The notes under the pieces: model-generated
Database searches by the model: none
The model's input: the letters and a program-made list of their open reading frames with translations, nothing else
Told to the model about the DNA's origin: nothing
Position numbers and translations under genes: made by a program
Source of the DNA: Thiobacillaceae bacterium
GTDB lineage: Bacteria > Pseudomonadota > Gammaproteobacteria > Burkholderiales > Thiobacillaceae
NCBI GenBank assembly: GCA_025054655.1
Contig: JANWZL010000013.1
Location: forward strand, 1 to 55,027
Length of the DNA stretch: 55,027 bases
Direction of reading: 5' to 3'
Shown here: piece after piece, positions 1 to 31,739 of the stretch
How positions within the stretch are numbered: the stretch's first letter is position 1
Layout of the letters: every line of letters begins with the position of its first letter

Positions 1-515
1 CGCTCCACGCCGGCGACGATCTCCGCCCGCGCCGCCTCCGGGCCCGCCCAGCCCAGCACTTTGACCCATTTGCCGGGCTCCAGGTCCTTGTAGTGTTGGA
101 AGAAGTGGGCGATCTGTCGGAGCAGCTGCTCAGGCAGGTCCTCCGGCCGCTGCACTTGGCAGTAGAGGCTGCACAGCTTGTCGATGGGCACGGCCAGGAC
201 CTTGGCGTCGAGGCCGGACTCGTCCTCCATGCGCAGCAGGCCTACCGGCCGGCAGCGCACCACCACCCCGGTGATGAGCGGGATGGGAGTGATCACCAGC
301 ACGTCCACCGGGTCGCCGTCCTCCGACAGGGTGTGCGGGATATAGCCGTAGTTGCAGGGGTAGTGCATGGCGGTGGACATGAACCGGTCGACGAACATGG
401 CCCCGGTCTCCTTGTCCACCTCGTACTTGATGGGCTCCCCGTGCGCGGGGATCTCGACGATGACGTTGACGTCGTCGGGCACGTCGCGCCCGGAGCTGAC
501 CCGATCTAGATTCAT
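1..515 (-). CDS. ppa: Inorganic pyrophosphatase (3' end truncated by window edge)
   Basis: Minus-strand translation from ATG at 515: [74 protein letters not shown], typical family I PPase. Confidence 0.95.
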
Positions 516-614
516 GCCTTGGCCTCTCCTCTTCAGCAAATGTGACCGATACGGGACACCCGGACGGCGGCGGTTGTGGCATGATTGAGCATCCCCCGCC
601 GACACACCGGCCCC

Positions 615-902
615 ATGCAGGCCTGCGAAGAACTCGTCATCCGCGGCATCACCCGCCAAGGCCGCCCCTTCCGCCCCAGCGACTGGGCCGAGCGCCTCAG
701 CGGGCTGTTCGCCTCACACGGGGCCGACAACCGCACCCGCTACTCGCCCTATGTGTACCCGATCCGCCGCGGGGGTGTGGCCTGTGTGGTGGTCAGCAAG
801 GCCCTGCAAGTGCAGGAGCCCATGGTGTACAAGTTCCTGCTCGATTTCGCCCGCGACAACGACCTGGAGGTGGTCGAGGGCCGGCGCAGCGCGCGCGATT
901 GA
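615..902 (+). CDS. DUF3579 family protein
   Basis: [36 protein letters not shown]... recognised as a small conserved proteobacterial family. Confidence 0.7.
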
Positions 903-937
903 GCAGCGTGGATTGGCCCCCGCGCGGCCGCGCTTGC

Positions 938-1201
938 TCAGCCCATCGCCTTGATGGCCGCGGACAGCCGGCTCTTGTGCCGTGCCGCCTTGTTCTTGTG
1001 CACGATCTTCTTGTCGGCGATGCGGTCGATCACCGACATGGACTCCTGGAAGGCGGCCTGAGCCGCGGCCTTGTCGCCGCTGGCGATGGCACGCCGCACC
1101 TTCTTGACCGCGGTGCGGTACTGCGAGCGCAGCGCGCGGTTGTGCAGGCGCCGCCGCTCGTTTTGCCGGGCGCGCTTGCGCGCCTGGGCAGTGTTGGCCA
1201 T
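938..1201 (-). CDS. rpsT: 30S ribosomal protein S20
   Basis: [35 protein letters not shown]... Confidence 0.97.
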
Positions 1202-1482
1202 AAGTGACTCCTCGATACGCTAAGGTCAAACGCTTATCTTAGCCAGCGCAGGCAAGTATGACAAGGCACCGACGAGCGAAACATTGCGGCAGCGGCGGTC
1301 GGCCCCCGTCTCGGCATGCACATTGGGGAAGCGCCAAATGAATCTGCATGAACCTGCTGCCCGTAAGGAGGGCTGCGTTGCGCACGGCACGGCTACCGCG
1401 CCTGTCGAAAGAATTGTGTCTCGCGGCAGCGTTGCGGGCGCATCGCCCTCCACCCGCTCGCGAGGATTTCTTCAGCCTTTCC

Positions 1483-1511
1483 TTGACCCTCGGCCGGAAA
1501 GTGACTACATT
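1483..1511 (+). promoter_or_regulatory. Candidate sigma70 promoter for phd-PIN operon
   Basis: TTGACC (1483-1488), 17-nt spacer, TACATT (1506-1511); ATG at 1543. Confidence 0.45.
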
Positions 1512-1542
1512 GCCCCAGCATTGTTGGTCACACAGGCCGCCC

Positions 1543-1833
1543 ATGCAGGTCTCCATACGCGAGCTGAAGGTGCATCTGTCACGCTATGTGCGACTGGCCC
1601 GCACGGGTGAAGTGATCGAGGTCACCGCACATCGCCGTCCCGTCGCCCGGGTCATCGGTGTGCCGTCTTCGCGCAGCAGCGTTGTGCCGTCCTCGGCCCA
1701 GGGCTCGGCCCTGCAAGCGCTCATCGCGCGGGGCGGCGCACAATGGGGTGGGGGCAAACCCCAAGGGGCTCGGCTCACGCTCGCGGCCGGCGGCACCGCC
1801 TTGTCGCGCATCGTCCTGGAAGAGCGCGGCTGA
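1543..1833 (+). CDS. Type II antitoxin, Phd/YefM family
   Basis: MQVSIRELKVHLSRYVRLARTGEVIEVTAHRRPVARVIGV, Phd N-terminal signature; followed 6 nt later by a PIN-domain gene. Confidence 0.88.
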   Translation: MQVSIRELKVHLSRYVRLARTGEVIEVTAHRRPVARVIGVPSSRSSVVPSSAQGSALQALIARGGAQWGGGKPQGARLTLAAGGTALSRIVLEERG

Positions 1834-1839
1834 CCCAGG

Positions 1840-2418
1840 GTGATCCTGTACCTGGACACCTCGGCCCTGGTCAAGCTCTACGTCATCGAGCCGGATAGCG
1901 ATCGGGTGCGGGCCTGGGTCGAGGCGAGCGAACTGGTGGCCGTGTGCCGCATCGCCTGGGCCGAGGCCTGTGCCGCGTTTGCCCGCCGGGCGCGTGAGAT
2001 GCCGGCCGACCAAGGCGTGCTGGAACAGGCACGCCAGGCCCTGGGGCGCGATTGGCCCCACTGCTGCATCATGGAACTGACCCAGGCGCTCATGGAGCGT
2101 GCGTGTGAATATGCCGAGGTCTTCGCCCTGCGGGCCTACGACGGGGTGCAACTGGCCGCTGCCGCGGCCTTGCGCGACGCCGTGGGGGGTGCAGTGGCCT
2201 TCACCTGTTTCGATCAACGTTTGGACACCTCGAAAAACCTGCTGCGCGGCCGGATGGCGGCGTTGCGCGGTGCTCGGATGCTCGCCTATCTGCTTGATAT
2301 GTCTCGCATCCTGCACTCCGTGCGCCTTGCCCTCCAACCGCTCGCGACGGTTTTTCGAGGTGCCCGTTTGAACAAGGCCGCACGGGTATTGGGCCTGGAG
2401 GTGCAGCCGACGAGGTGA
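1840..2418 (+). CDS. PIN-domain (VapC-like) toxin carrying an in-frame 49-codon insertion near its C-terminus
   Basis: GTG start; MILYLDTSALVKLYVIEP...ACAAFARRA...AYDGVQLAAAAAL...FTCFDQRL; the last PIN segment NKAARVLGLEV is displaced by 49 codons. Confidence 0.85.
   Translation: MILYLDTSALVKLYVIEPDSDRVRAWVEASELVAVCRIAWAEACAAFARRAREMPADQGVLEQARQALGRDWPHCCIMELTQALMERACEYAEVFALRAYDGVQLAAAAALRDAVGGAVAFTCFDQRLDTSKNLLRGRMAALRGARMLAYLLDMSRILHSVRLALQPLATVFRGARLNKAARVLGLEVQPTR
2224..2364. mobile_element. MITE-like non-coding insertion, 141 bp, TIR GRCACCTCGAAAAACC, TSD CGTTTG
   Basis: Left end GACACCTCGAAAAACC (2224-2239) and right end GGTTTTTCGAGGTGCC (2349-2364) are inverted repeats (15/16); CGTTTG at 2218-2223 and 2365-2370; removing one TSD plus the element restores FDQRLNKAARVLGLEV. 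Confidence 0.85.
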
Positions 2419-2620
2419 CCGCAGGGGCCGCATGCAAGCGCCGGCACCCATCCTGCACGCCGGTCCGCCTGGCCGGGCAGGGCAAGGTGCGGCCAGGGCT
2501 CAGCTCCAGGGCGGTGGGGATGCCCCGCCAGCAGGGCAGGGTCTTGCCCGTCTACCCCAAGCGGCGAGCAGTCGCTTTCTGCTGACTTCGCCATAACGAA
2601 CGACGACACGTGAACCTGCT

Positions 2621-4156
2621 GTGAACCTCCTGCGGGCCCTCGCCACGGTCAGCTCGATGACCCTGCTCTCCCGCATCCTGGGCTTCGTGCGCGATGCGGT
2701 GATCGCGCGCGCCTTCGGTGCCGGGGCGATGACCGACGCCTTCTTCGTCGCCTTCCGGCTGCCCAATCTGCTGCGGCGGCTGTTCGCCGAAGGGGCGTTC
2801 TCGCAGGCCTTCGTGCCGGTGCTGGCGGAATACAAGAACCGCCGCGGCGAGGCGGCCACGCGCGTGCTCATCGACCGCGTGGCCACCGCCTTGTTCGTGG
2901 CGCTCGTGCTGGTGGCCGCCCTGGGGGTGGTGGGGGCGCCGCTTATCGTGCTCGTCTCCGCTCCCGGTTTCCTCAGCCGGCCGGACAAGTTCCAGCTCAC
3001 GGTGGAACTGACCCGCATCGTCTTTCCCTACATCCTGTTCATCTCGCTCACCGCGCTCGCCGCCGGGGTGCTCAACACCTACAGCCGCTTTATGCTGCCG
3101 GCCTTCACGCCGGTGTTGCTCAACGTGGCGATGATCGCCGCGGCGCTTGCCGCCGCCCCCTGGTTCGACCCGCCCGTGCTGGCGCTGGCCTGGGGGGCCT
3201 TCCTGGGCGGGCTGCTGCAGCTCGCTGCGCAGTTCGCGGGGCTGAAGCGTCTGGGGCTTTTGCCGCGCTGGGACTGGGCCCCGCGCGACGAGGGCGTGCG
3301 CCGCATCCTGAAGCTCATGGCCCCGGCCGCCCTGGGGGTGTCCATCGCCCAGGTGTCGCTGCTCATCAACACCCTATTCGCCTCCTTCCTCGCCACTGGC
3401 AGCGTATCCTGGTTGTACTATGCCGACCGGTTGATGGAGTTCCCCACCGGCATGCTGGGGGTGGCCCTGGGCACCATCCTGCTGCCCTCGCTGGCCAAGC
3501 ACTACGCCGACGACGACCCCACCCAGTATGCACAGCTGCTCGACTGGGGGCTACGCCTGACGCTGCTGCTGGCCGCCCCTGCGGCGGTGGGCCTGGGTGT
3601 GCTGGCGGTGCCGCTGATCGCCACCCTGTTCCACTACGGCGAGTTCACCGCGCACGACGTGACCATGACCCGGGATGCCCTGATCGCCTACAGCGTGGGG
3701 CTGGTGGGCCTGATCCTGGTCAAGGTGCTGGCGCCGGGCTTCTACGCCCGGCAGGACATCCGCACGCCGGTGAGGATCGCCATCGTCACCCTGATGGCCA
3801 CCCAGGCCATGAACCTCGCCTTCATCTGGCCGCTCAAACACGCCGGCCTAGCGCTCGCCATCGCACTCGGGGCCTGTCTGAACGCCGGCATCCTGTATCA
3901 CAAGCTGCGCGCGCACGGCATCTACCGGCCGCAGCCGGGCTGGCCCGCCTTCTTGCTCAAGCTGGCCGTCGCCTTGCTCGCCATGGGGCTCACCCTGGCC
4001 CTGACCATGGGGGAGACGGCGGACTGGCTGGCCTATCGTGCGAGTGAACGGGTGCTGCGCGTCAGCGCCCTGGTCCTGGGCGGGGCCGCGGTGTACTTCG
4101 GCGTATTGTGGCTACTGGGGTTGCGGCCGGCCGATTTCAGACGCCGCGCGGCATAG
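2621..4156 (+). CDS. murJ: Lipid II flippase MurJ (MviN)
   Basis: [68 protein letters not shown]. Confidence 0.97.
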
Positions 4157-4207
4157 ACACTCGCCCACCCAGCCTCTAAACTATCAAATTTTTCAATCGG
4201 ATATCGC

Positions 4208-5128
4208 ATGCGCATCACCCACGGCTGGCCCCGCGCCGACCGCCCCAACGCGCTCACCATCGGCAACTTCGATGGCGTGCACCTGGGGCATCAGGCCATG
4301 CTGGCGCGGCTGACGGCCCAGGCGGCGGCGGTGGGTGCGCTGCCCACGGTGCTCACCTTCGAGCCGCACCCGCGCGAGCTGTTCAGCCCGGAGCAGGCGC
4401 CGACGCGGCTGACCAGCCTGCGCGAGAAGCTGGAGATCCTGCGCGCCCTGGGGGTGGCGCACGTGCACGTGTGCCGCTTCACGCGCAGCTTCGCCCAGCT
4501 GACGGCGGAGGAGTTCGTGGCGCGTATCTTGGTCGAGGGGCTGAAGGCCCGTTATGTCCTGGTGGGCGACGACTTCCGTTTCGGCGCCCGCCGTGCCGGT
4601 GACTTCGCCCTGCTCACACGCCTCGGCGAACGCTACGGCTTCCGGGCCGAGACCTTGCCGACCGTCGAGGCGGCGGGTATGCGCGCCTCCAGCACCGCAG
4701 TGCGCGAGGCCTTGGCCGCCGGCGACATGGCCACCGCCGCCCAGCTGCTCGGCCGCCCCTATTCCATCTCCGGCCGCGTCATGCATGGCGATCACCTGGG
4801 CCACAAGCTGGGCTGGCCCACCGCCAATATCCAGTTGAAGCACAACCGGCCGCCGCTCAAGGGCATCTTCGCCGTGCGCGTGCAGGGCCTCGCCCGGCCG
4901 GACTGGCCCGGGGTGGCGAGCCTGGGCACGCGGCCTACCGTGCATGCGGACGGCCGGCCGACACTGGAGGTGCACCTGTTCGACTTCTCCGGCGACCTTT
5001 ACTCGGCCCACCTGCGCGTGGAGTTCCTGCACAAGCTGCGGGAGGAGATGAAGTTCGCCTCGCTGGAGGAACTGCAGGCGCAGATCGGCCGCGATGCCGC
5101 CCGTGCGCGCGAGCTGCTGAACGCCTGA
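4208..5128 (+). CDS. ribF: Bifunctional riboflavin kinase/FAD synthetase
   Basis: NALTIGNFDGVHLGHQAML...GRPYSISGRVMHGDHLGHKLGWPTANI. Confidence 0.97.
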   Translation: MRITHGWPRADRPNALTIGNFDGVHLGHQAMLARLTAQAAAVGALPTVLTFEPHPRELFSPEQAPTRLTSLREKLEILRALGVAHVHVCRFTRSFAQLTAEEFVARILVEGLKARYVLVGDDFRFGARRAGDFALLTRLGERYGFRAETLPTVEAAGMRASSTAVREALAAGDMATAAQLLGRPYSISGRVMHGDHLGHKLGWPTANIQLKHNRPPLKGIFAVRVQGLARPDWPGVASLGTRPTVHADGRPTLEVHLFDFSGDLYSAHLRVEFLHKLREEMKFASLEELQAQIGRDAARARELLNA

Positions 5129-5149
5129 ACATTCACTGCCCGACCCATC

Positions 5150-7936
5150 ATGCCTGACTACCGCCACACCCTGAACCTGCCCGACACCCCCTTCCCCATG
5201 CGCGGCGACTTGGCCCGGCGCGAACCCGGCTGGGTGCGGCAATGGCAGCAGCAGCGGCTGTACGACAAGATCCGCGCCGCCGCCGCCGGGCGGCCCAAGT
5301 TCGTCCTGCACGACGGGCCGCCCTACGCCAACGGCGACATCCACATCGGCCACGCGGTCAACAAGATCCTCAAGGACATCATCGTCAAGTCCAAGACCCT
5401 GGATGGCTACGACGCGCCCTATGTGCCGGGCTGGGACTGCCACGGGCTGCCGATCGAGCTGGCGGTGGAGAAGCTCCACGGCAAACAGATCGAACCAGCG
5501 CGTTTCCGCGCCCTGTGCCGCGAGTATGCCCAAAGCCAGGTCGAGCGCCAGCGCGCCGATTTCATCCGCCTGGGGGTGCTGGCCGACTGGGACCACCCCT
5601 ACCTGACCATGGACTTCCGCTTCGAGGCGGACATCATGCGCCAGCTCGGCCGCATCTACGCCAACGGCTATCTGTACCGCGGCGCGAAACCGGTGCATTG
5701 GTGCGTGGACTGCGGCTCGGCCCTGGCCGAGGCGGAGGTCGAGTACGAGGAGCGCACCTCGCCGGCCATCGACGTGGCCTTCCCGCTGGCCGACTGCGCC
5801 GAACTCGCCCGCCGGCTGGGGGTGGATGCCCAGGCCGACTGCCCGGTGTATGCGGTGATCTGGACCACCACCCCCTGGACCCTGCCGGCCAACCAGGCGG
5901 TGGCGGTGCATCCCGAGTTCATCTACGACCTGGTGCGCACCCCTAGGGGGGTGCTGATCCTTGCGCGCGAGCTGGCGGAGGCCGCCATTCGCCGCTACGG
6001 CCTGGAGACGGTGGAGGTGGTGGCCCAGGTGGAGGGGCGGGCACTGGCGGGGCTCACTCTGGAACACCCCTTCCTCGACCGGCAGGTGCCGCTGATCCTG
6101 GCCGAGTTCGTCAGCCTCGACGCCGGCACCGGCCTGGTGCACATCGCGCCCGGCCACGGACAGGACGACTACGTGGTGGGTGCCCGTCATGGACTTGCGG
6201 TCGAAAATCCGGTCGGCGACGACGGCCGCTTCCACCCTGACACGCCCTTCGTCGGCGGGCTGGAGGTGTGGGCGGCCAACCCGCGGGTGATCGAGCTGCT
6301 CGCCGAACGCGGGCGGCTGCTCGCGCACGAGCGGCTGCGTCACAGCTACCCCCACTGCTGGCGGCACAAGACACCGATCATCTTCCGCGCCACCCGGCAG
6401 TGGTTCATCGGCATGGACGTCCGTGGCCAGGGGCCAGGGGCCAGCGGGCAACAGACCCTGCGCGAGCTGGCGCTCGCGGCGGTGGCGGCCACCCGCTTCT
6501 ACCCCGAGTGGGGGCGGGCGCGCCTACAGGCGATGATGCAAAACCGCCCGGACTGGTGTGTGTCGCGCCAGCGCTACTGGGGCGTGCCCATCCCGCTGTT
6601 CGTGCACAAGACCACGGGCGAGCCGCACCCGCGCAGCCTGGAGCTGATCGAGCAGGTGGCGCAGCGGGTGGAGGCGGCGGGCATCGAGGCCTGGTTCCAG
6701 CTCGAGCCGCAGGAGCTGCTCGGCGAGGAGGTGGCGCAGTACGAGAAGGTGACCGACACCCTGGACGTGTGGTTCGACTCCGGCGTGACCCACGCCTGCC
6801 TGCTCAAGGAGCGCGAAGGGCTCAAACACCCGGCCGACCTGTACCTGGAAGGTTCGGATCAGCACCGCGGCTGGTTCCAGTCCTCGCTCATCACCGGCTG
6901 CGCCACGGACGGCCACGCCCCCTATGCGGCCCTGCTCACCCACGGCTTCGTGGTGGATGCCCAGGGCTACAAGATGTCGAAGTCGCGCGGCAACGTGATC
7001 GCGCCGCAGCAGGTGTGCGACAGCCTGGGGGCGGAGATCCTGCGGCTGTGGGTGGCGAGCACCGACTATGCGGGAGAGCTGTCCATCTCCGATGAGATCT
7101 TGAAGCGCGTGGTGGAGGCCTATCGCCGGCTGCGCAACACCCTGCGTTTCCTGCTCGCCAACACCGCCGACTTCGACCCGCAGCGCGACAGCCTGCCGGT
7201 GGAGGCCTGGCTCACGCTGGACCGCTATGCCCTGGCACTCACCCGCAGACTGCAGACGGAGGTGATCGCCGATTACCGCGACTACAGCTTCCACACCCTG
7301 GTGCAGCGGCTGCACAACTTCTGCTCCGAGGACCTGGGCGCGTTCTACCTCGACGTGCTCAAGGACCGGCTCTACACCACGGCGGCCGCCTCGCCCGCAC
7401 GCCGCTCGGCGCAGACGGCGCTGTGGCACATCGCCCAGGCCTTGACGCGGCTGCTCGCCCCCGTGCTCTCCTTCACCGCCGAGGAGATCTGGGCCCTGGT
7501 CGGCCGCAGCGACAGCATCTTTTTGGAGCAGTGGCATGCGCTGCCGGCAATTGCCACCGAGGAAGACCTGTTGAACGATTGGGGTCGAATCCGTGCGCTG
7601 CGCGCCCTGGCCACCAAACGGCTGGAAGAGCTGCGTGCAGCCGGTCAGATCGGCTCATCGCTGCAGGCTTCAGTGACCTATTACGCCGACGGCGCGGATT
7701 ACGCATTGCTCGCCGGCCTGGGCGATGATCTGCGTTTCGTGCTGATCACCTCGGCCGCCAGGGTCGAACGGGCAGAGGGTGACACGCGCGTGGAGGCCTT
7801 CCCCAGTCCACACCCCAAATGCGACCGCTGCTGGCATCACCGCGCCGACGTGGGGGCGGACCCGCAGCACCCGGGCCTGTGCGGGCGCTGTGTGAGCAAC
7901 CTGTTCGGGCCTGGCGAGGAGCGCCGGCATGCATGA
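5150..7936 (+). CDS. ileS: Isoleucyl-tRNA synthetase
   Basis: [34 protein letters not shown]-terminal [20 protein letters not shown] zinc site. Confidence 0.98.
6425..6452 (+). repeat. Heptanucleotide tandem repeat inside ileS (GGCCAGG GGCCAGG GGCCAGC GGGCAAC)
   Basis: Direct reading of the sequence at 6425-6452. Confidence 0.8.
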
Positions 7937-15399: not shown

Positions 15400-15455
15400 G
15401 TGAGCGTCAGGCGTGAGGGTGAGGGGTGAGGTGTAAGGCGTGAGGAGGACGGGGT
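15400..15455 (+). repeat. Degenerate heptamer tract (GTGAGGN-type)
   Basis: gtgagcgtcaggcgtgagggtgaggggtgaggtgtaaggcgtgaggaggacggg immediately before GTG start at 15456. Confidence 0.7.
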
Positions 15456-15821
15456 GTGCCTTACGGCCTGTTGGCTGATCTCGTCCTCGCCGTCCACTTC
15501 GCCTTCATCGTCTTCGTCAGTCTCGGCGGCCTCGCCGTGCTGCGTTGGCCGCGCCTGGCATGGCTGCACCTGCCCTGTGTGGTCTGGGGGGTGGTGGTCG
15601 AGGTGATGGGCTGGGTGTGTCCGCTCACGCCGCTGGAGAACCACTTTTTGCGTCTGGCGGGTGAACAGGGTTATGAGGGCGACTTCCTGCAGCACTATCT
15701 GCTTGCCGCCATCTACCCCGAGGGGCTCACCCGCGGCACCCAGATCGGCCTGGGTCTCGGCCTGCTCGTGCTCAACGCCCTGATCTACGCCCGCGTCCTG
15801 TCGCGTCGCCGACGGCCATAG
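15456..15821 (+). CDS. DUF2784 family membrane protein
   Basis: MPYGLLADLVLAVHFAFIVFVSLGGLAVLRWPRLAWLHLPCVVWGVVVEVMGWVCPLTPLENHF. Confidence 0.85.
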   Translation: MPYGLLADLVLAVHFAFIVFVSLGGLAVLRWPRLAWLHLPCVVWGVVVEVMGWVCPLTPLENHFLRLAGEQGYEGDFLQHYLLAAIYPEGLTRGTQIGLGLGLLVLNALIYARVLSRRRRP

Positions 15822-15904: not shown

Positions 15905-16480
15905 ATGCAAGACTACCTCCTCATCCTCCTTGGCACGGTGTTCGTCAACAACATCGTGATGACCAAGATGCTGGGCCTGTGCCCCTTCATGGGTGTGTCG
16001 CGCAAGCTGGAGACCTCCCTGGGCATGGGGGCGGCCACCACCTTCGTGCTCACCCTCGCCTCGGGCCTGAGCTACCTGATCGAGACCCATGTCCTGGGCG
16101 AGGAACTCCGCTACCTGCGCACACTCTCCTTCATCGTGGTGATCGCCGGCATCGTCGGCTTCACCGAGATGTTCATCCGCAAGACCTCGCCGGTGCTGTT
16201 CCGCGTGCTGGGCATCTACCTGCCGCTGATCACCACCAATTGCGCCGTACTGGGCATCCCCTTGCTCAACGTGCAGGCGCGGCATGGCTTCGTCGAATCG
16301 CTGTTCTTCGGACTGGGCGGGGCGCTCGGCTTCACCCTGGTGCTCGTCCTGTTCGCCGCGCTGCGCGAGCGGCTGGAGGCGGCGGACGTGCCGCTGCCCT
16401 TCCGCGGATCGGCCATCGCCCTGGTGAGCGCGGGCCTCATGAGCCTGGCCTTCATGGGGTTTGCGGGGCTGGTCAAGTGA
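15905..16480 (+). CDS. rsxA: Rnf/Rsx electron transport complex subunit A
   Basis: [53 protein letters not shown]. Confidence 0.97.
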
Positions 16481-16518
16481 GGGGTGAGGCGTGAGGCATG
16501 AGGCGTGAGGTGTGAGTA
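16477..16518 (+). repeat. Heptanucleotide tandem repeat, 6 units (GTGAGGN)
   Basis: GTGAGGG GTGAGGC GTGAGGC ATGAGGC GTGAGGT GTGAGTA; first unit contains the rsxA stop TGA. Confidence 0.9.
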
Positions 16519-16525
16519 GGCGGAT

Positions 16526-17074
16526 ATGCTGAGTGCCATCCTGGTCATGTCGGGCATCGCCCTGGTACTGGGCGGGGTGCTGGGCTGGGCGGCGATCCGT
16601 TTCCGGGTCGAGGAAGACCCGCTGGTGGACAAAATCGACGCCATCCTGCCGCAGACCCAGTGCGGGCAATGCGGCTACCCCGGCTGCCGGCCCTATGCCG
16701 AGGCCATCGCCAAGGGCGAGGCGGACATCAACCGCTGCCCGCCCGGCGGCGAGGAGGGCATCCGGCAGCTGGCCGAGCTGCTGGGGGTGGAACCCAAACC
16801 CCTGGGCGAAGGGCTGGTGCACAAGCCCAAGAGCGTGGCGGTGATCGACGAGCGGCTGTGCATCGGCTGCACCCTGTGCATCCAGGCCTGCCCGGTGGAT
16901 GCCATCGTTGGAGCGGCCAAACAGATGCATACCGTGGTCCCGGAGCTGTGCACCGGCTGTGAGTTGTGCGTAGCCCCCTGTCCAGTGGACTGCATCCGCA
17001 TGGAGGTGATCAAGGAGGACATCTCCAATTGGAAATGGCGCTACCCCGTCGTCTCGCTGACAGCGCTGGCATGA
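16526..17074 (+). CDS. rsxB: Rnf/Rsx complex subunit B (ferredoxin-like)
   Basis: [24 protein letters not shown]...[32 protein letters not shown]. Confidence 0.97.
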
Positions 17075-18723: not shown

Positions 18724-18748
18724 GCCCTCACCCCTCACGCCTCCTCCC
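18721..18748 (-). repeat. Heptamer tract in opposite orientation at rsxC/rsxD junction
   Basis: tgagccctcacccctcacgcctcctccc; reverse complement reads gggaggaggcgtgaggggtgagggctca. Confidence 0.65.
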
Positions 18749-19765
18749 ATGCCCACCTCCCCCCACATCGTCCTAGCCGACAACAGCGTGCGCGCCGTGA
18801 TGTTCAAGGTGCTGGCCGCCCTGGTGCCCGGGGTGGTGGTGCATGCGTGGATGTTCGGACCGGCCATCTGGGTGAGCCTGCTGCTGACCACGCTCTTCTG
18901 CCTGGTCATCGAGGCCCTGGTGCTGGCCATGCGCGACCTGCCGCTCAAACCCTTCCTCAGCGACGGCTCCGTTTTGGTCACCGCCTGGCTGCTGGCGCTG
19001 TCGCTGCCCACGCTGCTGCCTTGGTGGCTGTATGCCCTGGGCAGCCTGTTCGCCGTACTGGTGGCGAAGCATCTATACGGCGGGCTGGGGCAGAACGTGT
19101 TCAACCCCGCCATGGTCGGCTATGCGGTGCTGATCGTGAGCTTCCCCGCGCACATGAACCTGTGGCCCGCCCCGGTGGGCGTGGCGGGCCACACGCCCAA
19201 CCTCATGGAGGCCCTGGACCTGGTCTTCGCCGGTCAGGGCGCCGTGAGCCCAGACGCCTACACCGCCGCCACCCCCATGGACCAGCTGCGCGCCCAGGTG
19301 CGCACCGGCCTGAGCGCCGAGGCCGTGGCCGCGGCGAGTTTCGGCCTGCATGCGAAGGAGGCCCTGGTGTTGAGCTACGCCCTGGGCGGGCTGCTGTTGC
19401 TGGCCCACCGCGTCATCACCTGGCACGTCCCGGTGGCCTTCCTGGGTGCCCTCGTCGCCACCGCGACCCTGTTGCATCTGATCGATCCCGGCCGCCATGC
19501 CGACCCGCTGTTCCATCTGCTCACCGGCAGTACGGTGCTGGGCGCCTTCTTCATCCTCACCGACCCGGTCTCGGCCAGCACCACCCCGCTGGGCAAGCTG
19601 ATCTATGCCGGGCTCGCCGGCGTGATCACGGTGTTGATCCGCAGCTTCGGCGCCTATCCCGATGGGGTGGCCTTTGCGGTGCTGCTGATGAACGCGGCCG
19701 TCCCCTTCATCGACGCCTACACCCAGCCGCGGGTGTTCGGGCATTCGCGCGGCAGACGCACATGA
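18749..19765 (+). CDS. rsxD: Rnf/Rsx complex subunit D
   Basis: MPTSPHIVLADNSVRAVMFKVLAALVPGVVVHAWMFGPAIW..FNPAMVGYAVLIVSFP..PVSASTTPLGKLIYAGLAGVI. Confidence 0.95.
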   Translation: MPTSPHIVLADNSVRAVMFKVLAALVPGVVVHAWMFGPAIWVSLLLTTLFCLVIEALVLAMRDLPLKPFLSDGSVLVTAWLLALSLPTLLPWWLYALGSLFAVLVAKHLYGGLGQNVFNPAMVGYAVLIVSFPAHMNLWPAPVGVAGHTPNLMEALDLVFAGQGAVSPDAYTAATPMDQLRAQVRTGLSAEAVAAASFGLHAKEALVLSYALGGLLLLAHRVITWHVPVAFLGALVATATLLHLIDPGRHADPLFHLLTGSTVLGAFFILTDPVSASTTPLGKLIYAGLAGVITVLIRSFGAYPDGVAFAVLLMNAAVPFIDAYTQPRVFGHSRGRRT

Positions 19766-30406: not shown

Positions 30407-30904
30407 TCAGCCTCGGCGCTCGTAGACGACAAAGGCATAGGCCGGGCCAGCGTCGCCGAGATGGCGTTCACGGCTCAGCTCCGTCCACGCGCTGCGATCG
30501 AAGCAGGGGAAATGGGCGTCGCCGTCGTAGTCGGCCTCGATCTCGGTCAGATACAGCCGGTCCGCCAGCGGTAAGGCCTGGGCATAGAGCTGCGCCCCGC
30601 CGACGACGAACACCTCCGGGTCGTCGCCGCACAAGGCCAACGCCTCCTGCAGGCTGCCCGCGGTGAGACAGCCTAAGGCGCGATAGGTCGGATCGCGGCT
30701 GAGGATGACGGTGGTCCGGCCCGGCAGCGGTCGGCCGATGGACTCGAAGGTCCGGCGCCCCATGATGAGGTGATGCCCCAGGGTCAGGCGTTTGAAATGC
30801 CGTAAGTCCTCAGGCAGGTGCCAGGGCAGGCGGTTGTCCACCCCGATCACCCCGTTGCGCGCCACCGCGGCGACGATGGCCAGCCGCCTGCCCTCCCCTC
30901 TCAC
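30407..30904 (-). CDS. folA: Dihydrofolate reductase (GTG start proposed)
   Basis: VRGEGRRLAIVAAVARNGVIGVDNRLPWHLPEDLRHFKRLTLGHHLIMGRRTFESIGRPLPGRTTVILSR. Confidence 0.92.
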   Translation of the reverse strand: MRGEGRRLAIVAAVARNGVIGVDNRLPWHLPEDLRHFKRLTLGHHLIMGRRTFESIGRPLPGRTTVILSRDPTYRALGCLTAGSLQEALALCGDDPEVFVVGGAQLYAQALPLADRLYLTEIEADYDGDAHFPCFDRSAWTELSRERHLGDAGPAYAFVVYERRG

Positions 30905-30938
30905 CCCTGCCTCCTCACGCCTCACTCCTCCCCTCTCA
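30888..30938 (-). repeat. Degenerate heptamer tract at thyA/folA junction
   Basis: Minus strand: gtgtgagaggggaggagtgaggcgtgaggaggcaggggtgagaggggagg. Confidence 0.7.
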
Positions 30939-31739
30939 CACCGCCACCGGCGCCTTGATCGGCGGGTGTGGGTCATAGCCCTCGAGGGTGAAGTCCTCGT
31001 AGCGGAAGGCGAACAGGTCGCGCACCGCGGGGTTGAGCCGCATGGTCGGCAGCGGCCGCGGTGCACGAGTCAGCTGCAGGCGCACCTGGTCGAGGTGGTT
31101 GAGGTAGATGTGGGCGTCGCCCAGGGTGTGGATGAACTCACCCGGCGCAAGCCCGGTCACCTGGGCCACCATCATAGTCAGCAGGGCATAGGAGGCGATG
31201 TTGAAGGGCACGCCCAAAAAGAGGTCGGCGCTGCGCTGGTAGAGCTGGCAGGACAGCCGCCCCTCGGCCACGTAGAACTGGAACAGCACGTGGCAGGGCG
31301 GCAGCCGCATCTTGTCGAGCTCCCCCACATTCCAGGCCGACACCAGCAGCCGGCGCGAGTCGGGGTTGCGGCGGATGTCCTCCACCACCCGGGCGAGCTG
31401 GTCGATGTGGCGGCCGTCGGCGGTGGGCCAGGAGCGCCACTGATAGCCATAGATGGGGCCGAGATCGCCAGTCTCGTCTGCCCATTCGTCCCAGATCGTC
31501 ACACCGTGCTCGTGCAGATAGGCGATGTTGGTGTCGCCGCGCAGGAACCACAGCAGCTCGTGGATGACGGACTTGACGTGCACCTTCTTCGTGGTCACCA
31601 GCGGGAAACCCTGGGCGAGGTCGAAGCGCATCTGGTAGCCAAATATCGAGAGCGTGCCGGTGCCGGTCCGGTCGTCCTTGCGCACACCCTTGTCCAGCAC
31701 ATGGCGCAACAGCTCCAAGTATTGCCGCATGGCCTTCAA
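30936..31739 (-). CDS. thyA: Thymidylate synthase
   Basis: [49 protein letters not shown]...[12 protein letters not shown]. Confidence 0.98.

Follow-up and report, generated by a model that had tools for sequence, protein, structure and literature searches.

A vapC gene with an in-frame insert

What becomes of a toxin gene when a transposable element settles in its coding region and the reading frame stays open? This question is raised by a vapC-like gene in the 55,027-nt stretch of Thiobacillaceae DNA analysed here, referred to as the window in this text. The gene (1840..2418, + strand) encodes a PIN-domain toxin of 192 aa that contains an insert (Pfam PF01850, E 4.6e-9, and alignment with homologues). 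It is preceded, at a distance of 6 nt, by an intact gene for a Phd/YefM-family antitoxin (1543..1833, + strand; PF02604, TIGR01552), and the predicted products of the pair fit a VapC (PIN) toxin with its adjacent cognate antitoxin. The syntenic neighbours are rpsT for the 30S ribosomal protein S20 (938..1201, - strand; recognised from its sequence and aligned to the contig of a congener) and a murJ-like lipid II flippase gene (2621..4156, + strand; 82.8% DNA identity to the congener).

The insert comprises residues 129–177 and lies between FDQRL (FDxRL, the last catalytic-strand motif) and the C-terminal segment, which is displaced to residues 178–192, the last 15 of the protein. A preliminary description, made from the DNA alone, had recognised a MITE-like element placed in frame within a PIN gene, with a new protein variant as one possible outcome. 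This proposal was borne out by the terminal inverted repeats (TIRs), the target site duplication (TSD), further copies of the element and homologues without the segment. As had been stated, no stop codon interrupts the vapC frame; the ORF runs over 192 codons. The acidic residue of CFDQRL had also been said to be kept; indeed, the conserved acidic residues D6, E42, D101 and D125, which are invariant in 14 homologues, are all located N-terminal to the insert. An AlphaFold model of the 192-aa protein (one homologue supplied) had a pLDDT of 39 and was unusable, and a search of viral contigs for further VapC homologues found none.

Boundaries of the element

By comparison of copies, the element could be delimited to 143 bp (2223..2365, without strand assignment). 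It is non-autonomous and has no gene of its own. Its ends are 17-bp TIRs, GGACACCTCGAAAAACC on the left (2223..2239, + strand; consensus GGGCACC...) and GGTTTTTCGAGGTGCCC, as written on the + strand, on the right (2349..2365, - strand); they agree in 16 of 17 positions, and the TIR of the family is GGGCACCTCGAAAAACC. Directly outside them are the two copies of the TSD, GTTT (2219..2222 and 2366..2369, both + strand), which were assigned from the TSDs of other copies. Among 33 TIR-bounded elements from the window's own genome and from relatives, 20 display a perfect 4-bp direct repeat directly outside the 17-bp TIR, compared with 0.13 expected by chance. The duplicated sequence varies between copies (GTTT, AATT, GATG, CGTC, CGTT, AAAT and others), and the bounded copies revealed AC-NNNN-GT as the preferred target site.

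The preliminary description had delimited the element somewhat differently, as 141 bp with 16-bp TIRs matching in 15 positions and flanked by a duplicated CGTTTG hexamer. The TIRs and the identical flanking repeats are real, but the size had to be corrected from the other copies, and a 6-bp TSD was rejected in view of the perfect 4-bp repeats found there. The hexamer, which also flanks the copy on contig C135, can be read as GTTT plus C and G, since the AC-NNNN-GT preference makes these two bases likely. The net insertion of 147 nt (143+4), or 49 codons, had been given correctly.

The element thus has the features of a MITE: it is short, lacks a transposase, is bounded by TIRs, generates a TSD of constant length and occurs in dispersed copies. 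An Rfam search of window positions 1–6000 gave no matches. Elsewhere in the window, GTGAGG-rich degenerate repeats (GTGAGGGGTGAGGCGTGAGG) are found on both strands at four places (15419–15470, 16477–16528, 18727–18766 and 30893–30939).

Distribution of copies

The genome assembly to which the window belongs comprises 2.2 Mb in 157 contigs and is 84% complete. It contains 25 matches to the MITE, the best of them outside the window with an E value of 1e-64, so that the search for other genomic copies suggested in the preliminary description had a clearly positive outcome and the structure is no product of chance. The closest of the other copies are 97% identical to the window copy and have different flanks. 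The window copy itself differs from the consensus of its genome's copies in only 2 of 143 positions, which indicates that the insertion is young.

In a survey at the level of the bacterial family, the MITE was found in 34 of 117 genomes, and relatives occur across Burkholderiales. A search of a plasmid collection resulted in a single weak partial match, on a Nitrosomonas plasmid. Across the order, the MITE core is combined with quite different TIRs (GGGCACCTCGAAAAACC, GGAAACGCTGAATAAATC, GGAAGCTCTGCATAA), often in elements of exactly 143 bp (L153, L215, L217, L219, L241, L245, L232); it looks as if the ends had been swapped to fit different IS5-type transposases. A separate MITE of 110 bp with a different core displays the same TIR and a 4-bp TSD in three genomes (G013, G023 and G035; for example L149:2793-2902 and L230:1482-1591).

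The empty site in relatives

In the congener, on JAKADY010000010.1, an orthologous vapC with 70% identity is found in the same gene order as in the window (rpsT-vapBC-murJ-ribF-ileS), again with a similar short Phd-like ORF upstream. Its product goes straight from FDNRL to SKAAR. The 49 residues are also absent from 14 further VapC homologues of the family, where FDxRL leads directly to xKAAxxLG; the alignment of orthologues that had been suggested as a check therefore did not find the segment throughout the family. From the open frame that runs through the segment, one could argue that this lineage of VapC has carried it natively since ancient times and that no transposon was inserted. However, the syntenic orthologue and the 14 other homologues do without it, and near-identical copies are dispersed over the genome in different surroundings. 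We consider this interpretation refuted, with a negligible residual probability. The empty orthologous site and the dispersed copies together show that the segment in the window is a real insertion. A comparison of vapC with its counterpart in the congener yielded dN 0.21 and dS 0.90 (NG86), values that average both lineages and say little about selection after the insertion.

A candidate source of transposase

A search for the TIR in the 117 genomes of the family revealed one pair 1,278 bp apart (G033:C22:39655-40932). It encloses a 345-aa transposase of the IS5 family (NF033581, 305.8 bits against a cut-off of 140; Pfam DDE_Tnp_1 and DUF772). The ends of this IS match the MITE TIR in 17/17 and 15/17 positions; a matching 4-bp TSD was not seen at its flanks. 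In a genus-mate (G009), contig ends hold diverged fragments of related ISs, one of which has the exact TIR and an IS-like left end (70% identity). The assembly of the window's genome, which is 84% complete, did not yield a full IS with the ends of the MITE. For this reason, an IS5-family element can only be put forward as the likely source of transposase.

Copies inside genes and the question of readability

Most of the other full-length copies examined look intergenic (judged for a subset, by reading the flanking frames). Four intragenic copies were found in the genus, two of them stop-free and two with stops. Besides the vapC copy, the stop-free class includes a copy in the opposite orientation in a HEPN-like gene (G000:C16:32785-32927, within L002:1131-2059), where it adds 49 residues near the N-terminus and homologues lack these residues; the expected 4-bp TSD was not seen at this copy. 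The gene is located directly downstream of a nucleotidyltransferase-like gene, and the pair may be termed MNT-HEPN-like from its organisation and motifs, with Pfam scores under the curated cut-offs. The third copy, with one internal stop, lies in a YeeE/YedE-type gene (G009:C47:7837-7979; L050:1501-1643), and the fourth, which has other TIRs and internal stops, in an IS3-type transposase gene (G008:C199); both gene names were read from the translations without a database match. None of the four copies shifts the reading frame behind it, since 147 is divisible by three. Long ORFs that cross other copies, such as that in a relative on C112, had no Pfam match and were set aside as spurious, GC-rich frames.

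The preliminary description had raised the idea that such elements are selected to be readable in frame. In a stronger form, which has a parallel in a proposal for Rickettsia palindromic elements, length plus TSD would be held at a multiple of three and stops would be kept out of the frames, and genic insertions would thereby be tolerated. Several observations could be taken in this sense. Of 22 copies with perfect TSD, 15 are 143 bp long, among them members of subfamilies that have different TIRs and occur in several families of the order; the 110-bp MITE that shares the TIR also inserts a number of bases divisible by three; and the same phase (GTSKN...VFRGA) is used by the three intragenic copies of the A type (VapC, HEPN-like, YeeE/YedE-type). 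However, the four of six frames that are stop-free in both the window copy and the consensus are expected from base composition: in dinucleotide-shuffled versions of the window copy, at least four stop-free frames occur with P=0.16 (whole element) or P=0.38 (TIRs kept). In addition, half of the four intragenic copies contain stops, relatives of 142 and 145 bp with perfect TSD look active and would shift the reading frame, and most of the copies examined appear to lie outside genes. Selection for readability is therefore not supported, nor is it needed, as frame preservation follows from the length of the element, which alone can suffice. We regard selection for protein compatibility as improbable. 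A broader scenario, in which a Burkholderiales-wide MITE superfamily changes its TIRs with the IS5-type transposase, keeps its core and the frame-compatible 143 bp and lodges in genes, dispensable toxins included, as a readable 49-codon module, is speculative and seems comparably doubtful.

Proposed history and effect on the toxin

We propose that the 143-bp MITE recently transposed into the chromosomal vapC at an AC-NNNN-GT-like target, where 4 bp were duplicated. The transposase most likely acted in trans and belonged to an IS of the IS5 family that has the same 17-bp ends. With the insert, the gene encodes a 192-aa PIN protein with a transposon-derived segment of 49 residues between FDQRL and the C-terminal segment. 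It stayed open as a fusion because 147 nt are divisible by three and the frame that was entered is free of stops. The fusion protein is presumably made, and its toxicity is probably weakened or lost; a weakened VapC may be tolerated because a TA toxin module is dispensable. As a whole, this account of a recent IS5-driven insertion that yields a toxin-transposon fusion, with the toxin probably weakened, appears very likely to us.

It is conceivable that the insertion was positively selected for an attenuating or detoxifying effect on a costly toxin. Toxin-type genes (vapC and the HEPN-like gene) hold 2 of the approximately 8 full-length copies in this genome, and TA toxins occupy only a small part of a genome. 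However, there are just two cases, one with a HEPN assignment under the Pfam cut-offs, and surviving insertions sit mainly in dispensable genes anyway. We therefore think that such selection is unlikely.

Comparison with known systems

The window pair resembles known VapBC toxin-antitoxin systems in its PIN domain, the adjacent Phd antitoxin and the conserved acidic residues, and differs from them by the 49-residue insertion before the C-terminal segment. With IS5-family insertion sequences (NF033581), the MITE shares only the 17-bp ends, which a complete IS of a related genome also has, whereas it lacks their transposase. Neither the 143-bp element nor an in-frame MITE in VapC came up in a limited search of the literature.

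Rickettsia palindromic elements are palindromic repeats of about 150 bp that lie in frame in protein genes and add a peptide (PMC10969869). The MITE is like them in its in-frame peptide insertion, a likeness in mode only and not in sequence membership. Unlike them, most of its copies look intergenic, its ends and its 4-bp TSD are consistent with IS5-type transposition, and its host belongs to Burkholderiales. QMITEs of Coxiella and enterobacterial RU/ERIC sequences, which are MITEs or MITE-like repeats, are also sometimes fused in frame with genes (PMC5896051, PMC2759123). Their sizes differ from the 143 bp of the MITE, and the direct repeats of QMITE2 measure 7–9 bp (PMC10969869) as opposed to 4 bp here. 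The vapC insertion is thus a clear further example of the in-frame MITE fusions already documented. It is a clean, recent and natural case of a transposon that adds a peptide module to a toxin with the frame intact, and the syntenic congener without the insert provides a natural comparison, so that it can be examined directly whether toxin-antitoxin modules are silenced or re-tuned by insertions of this kind.
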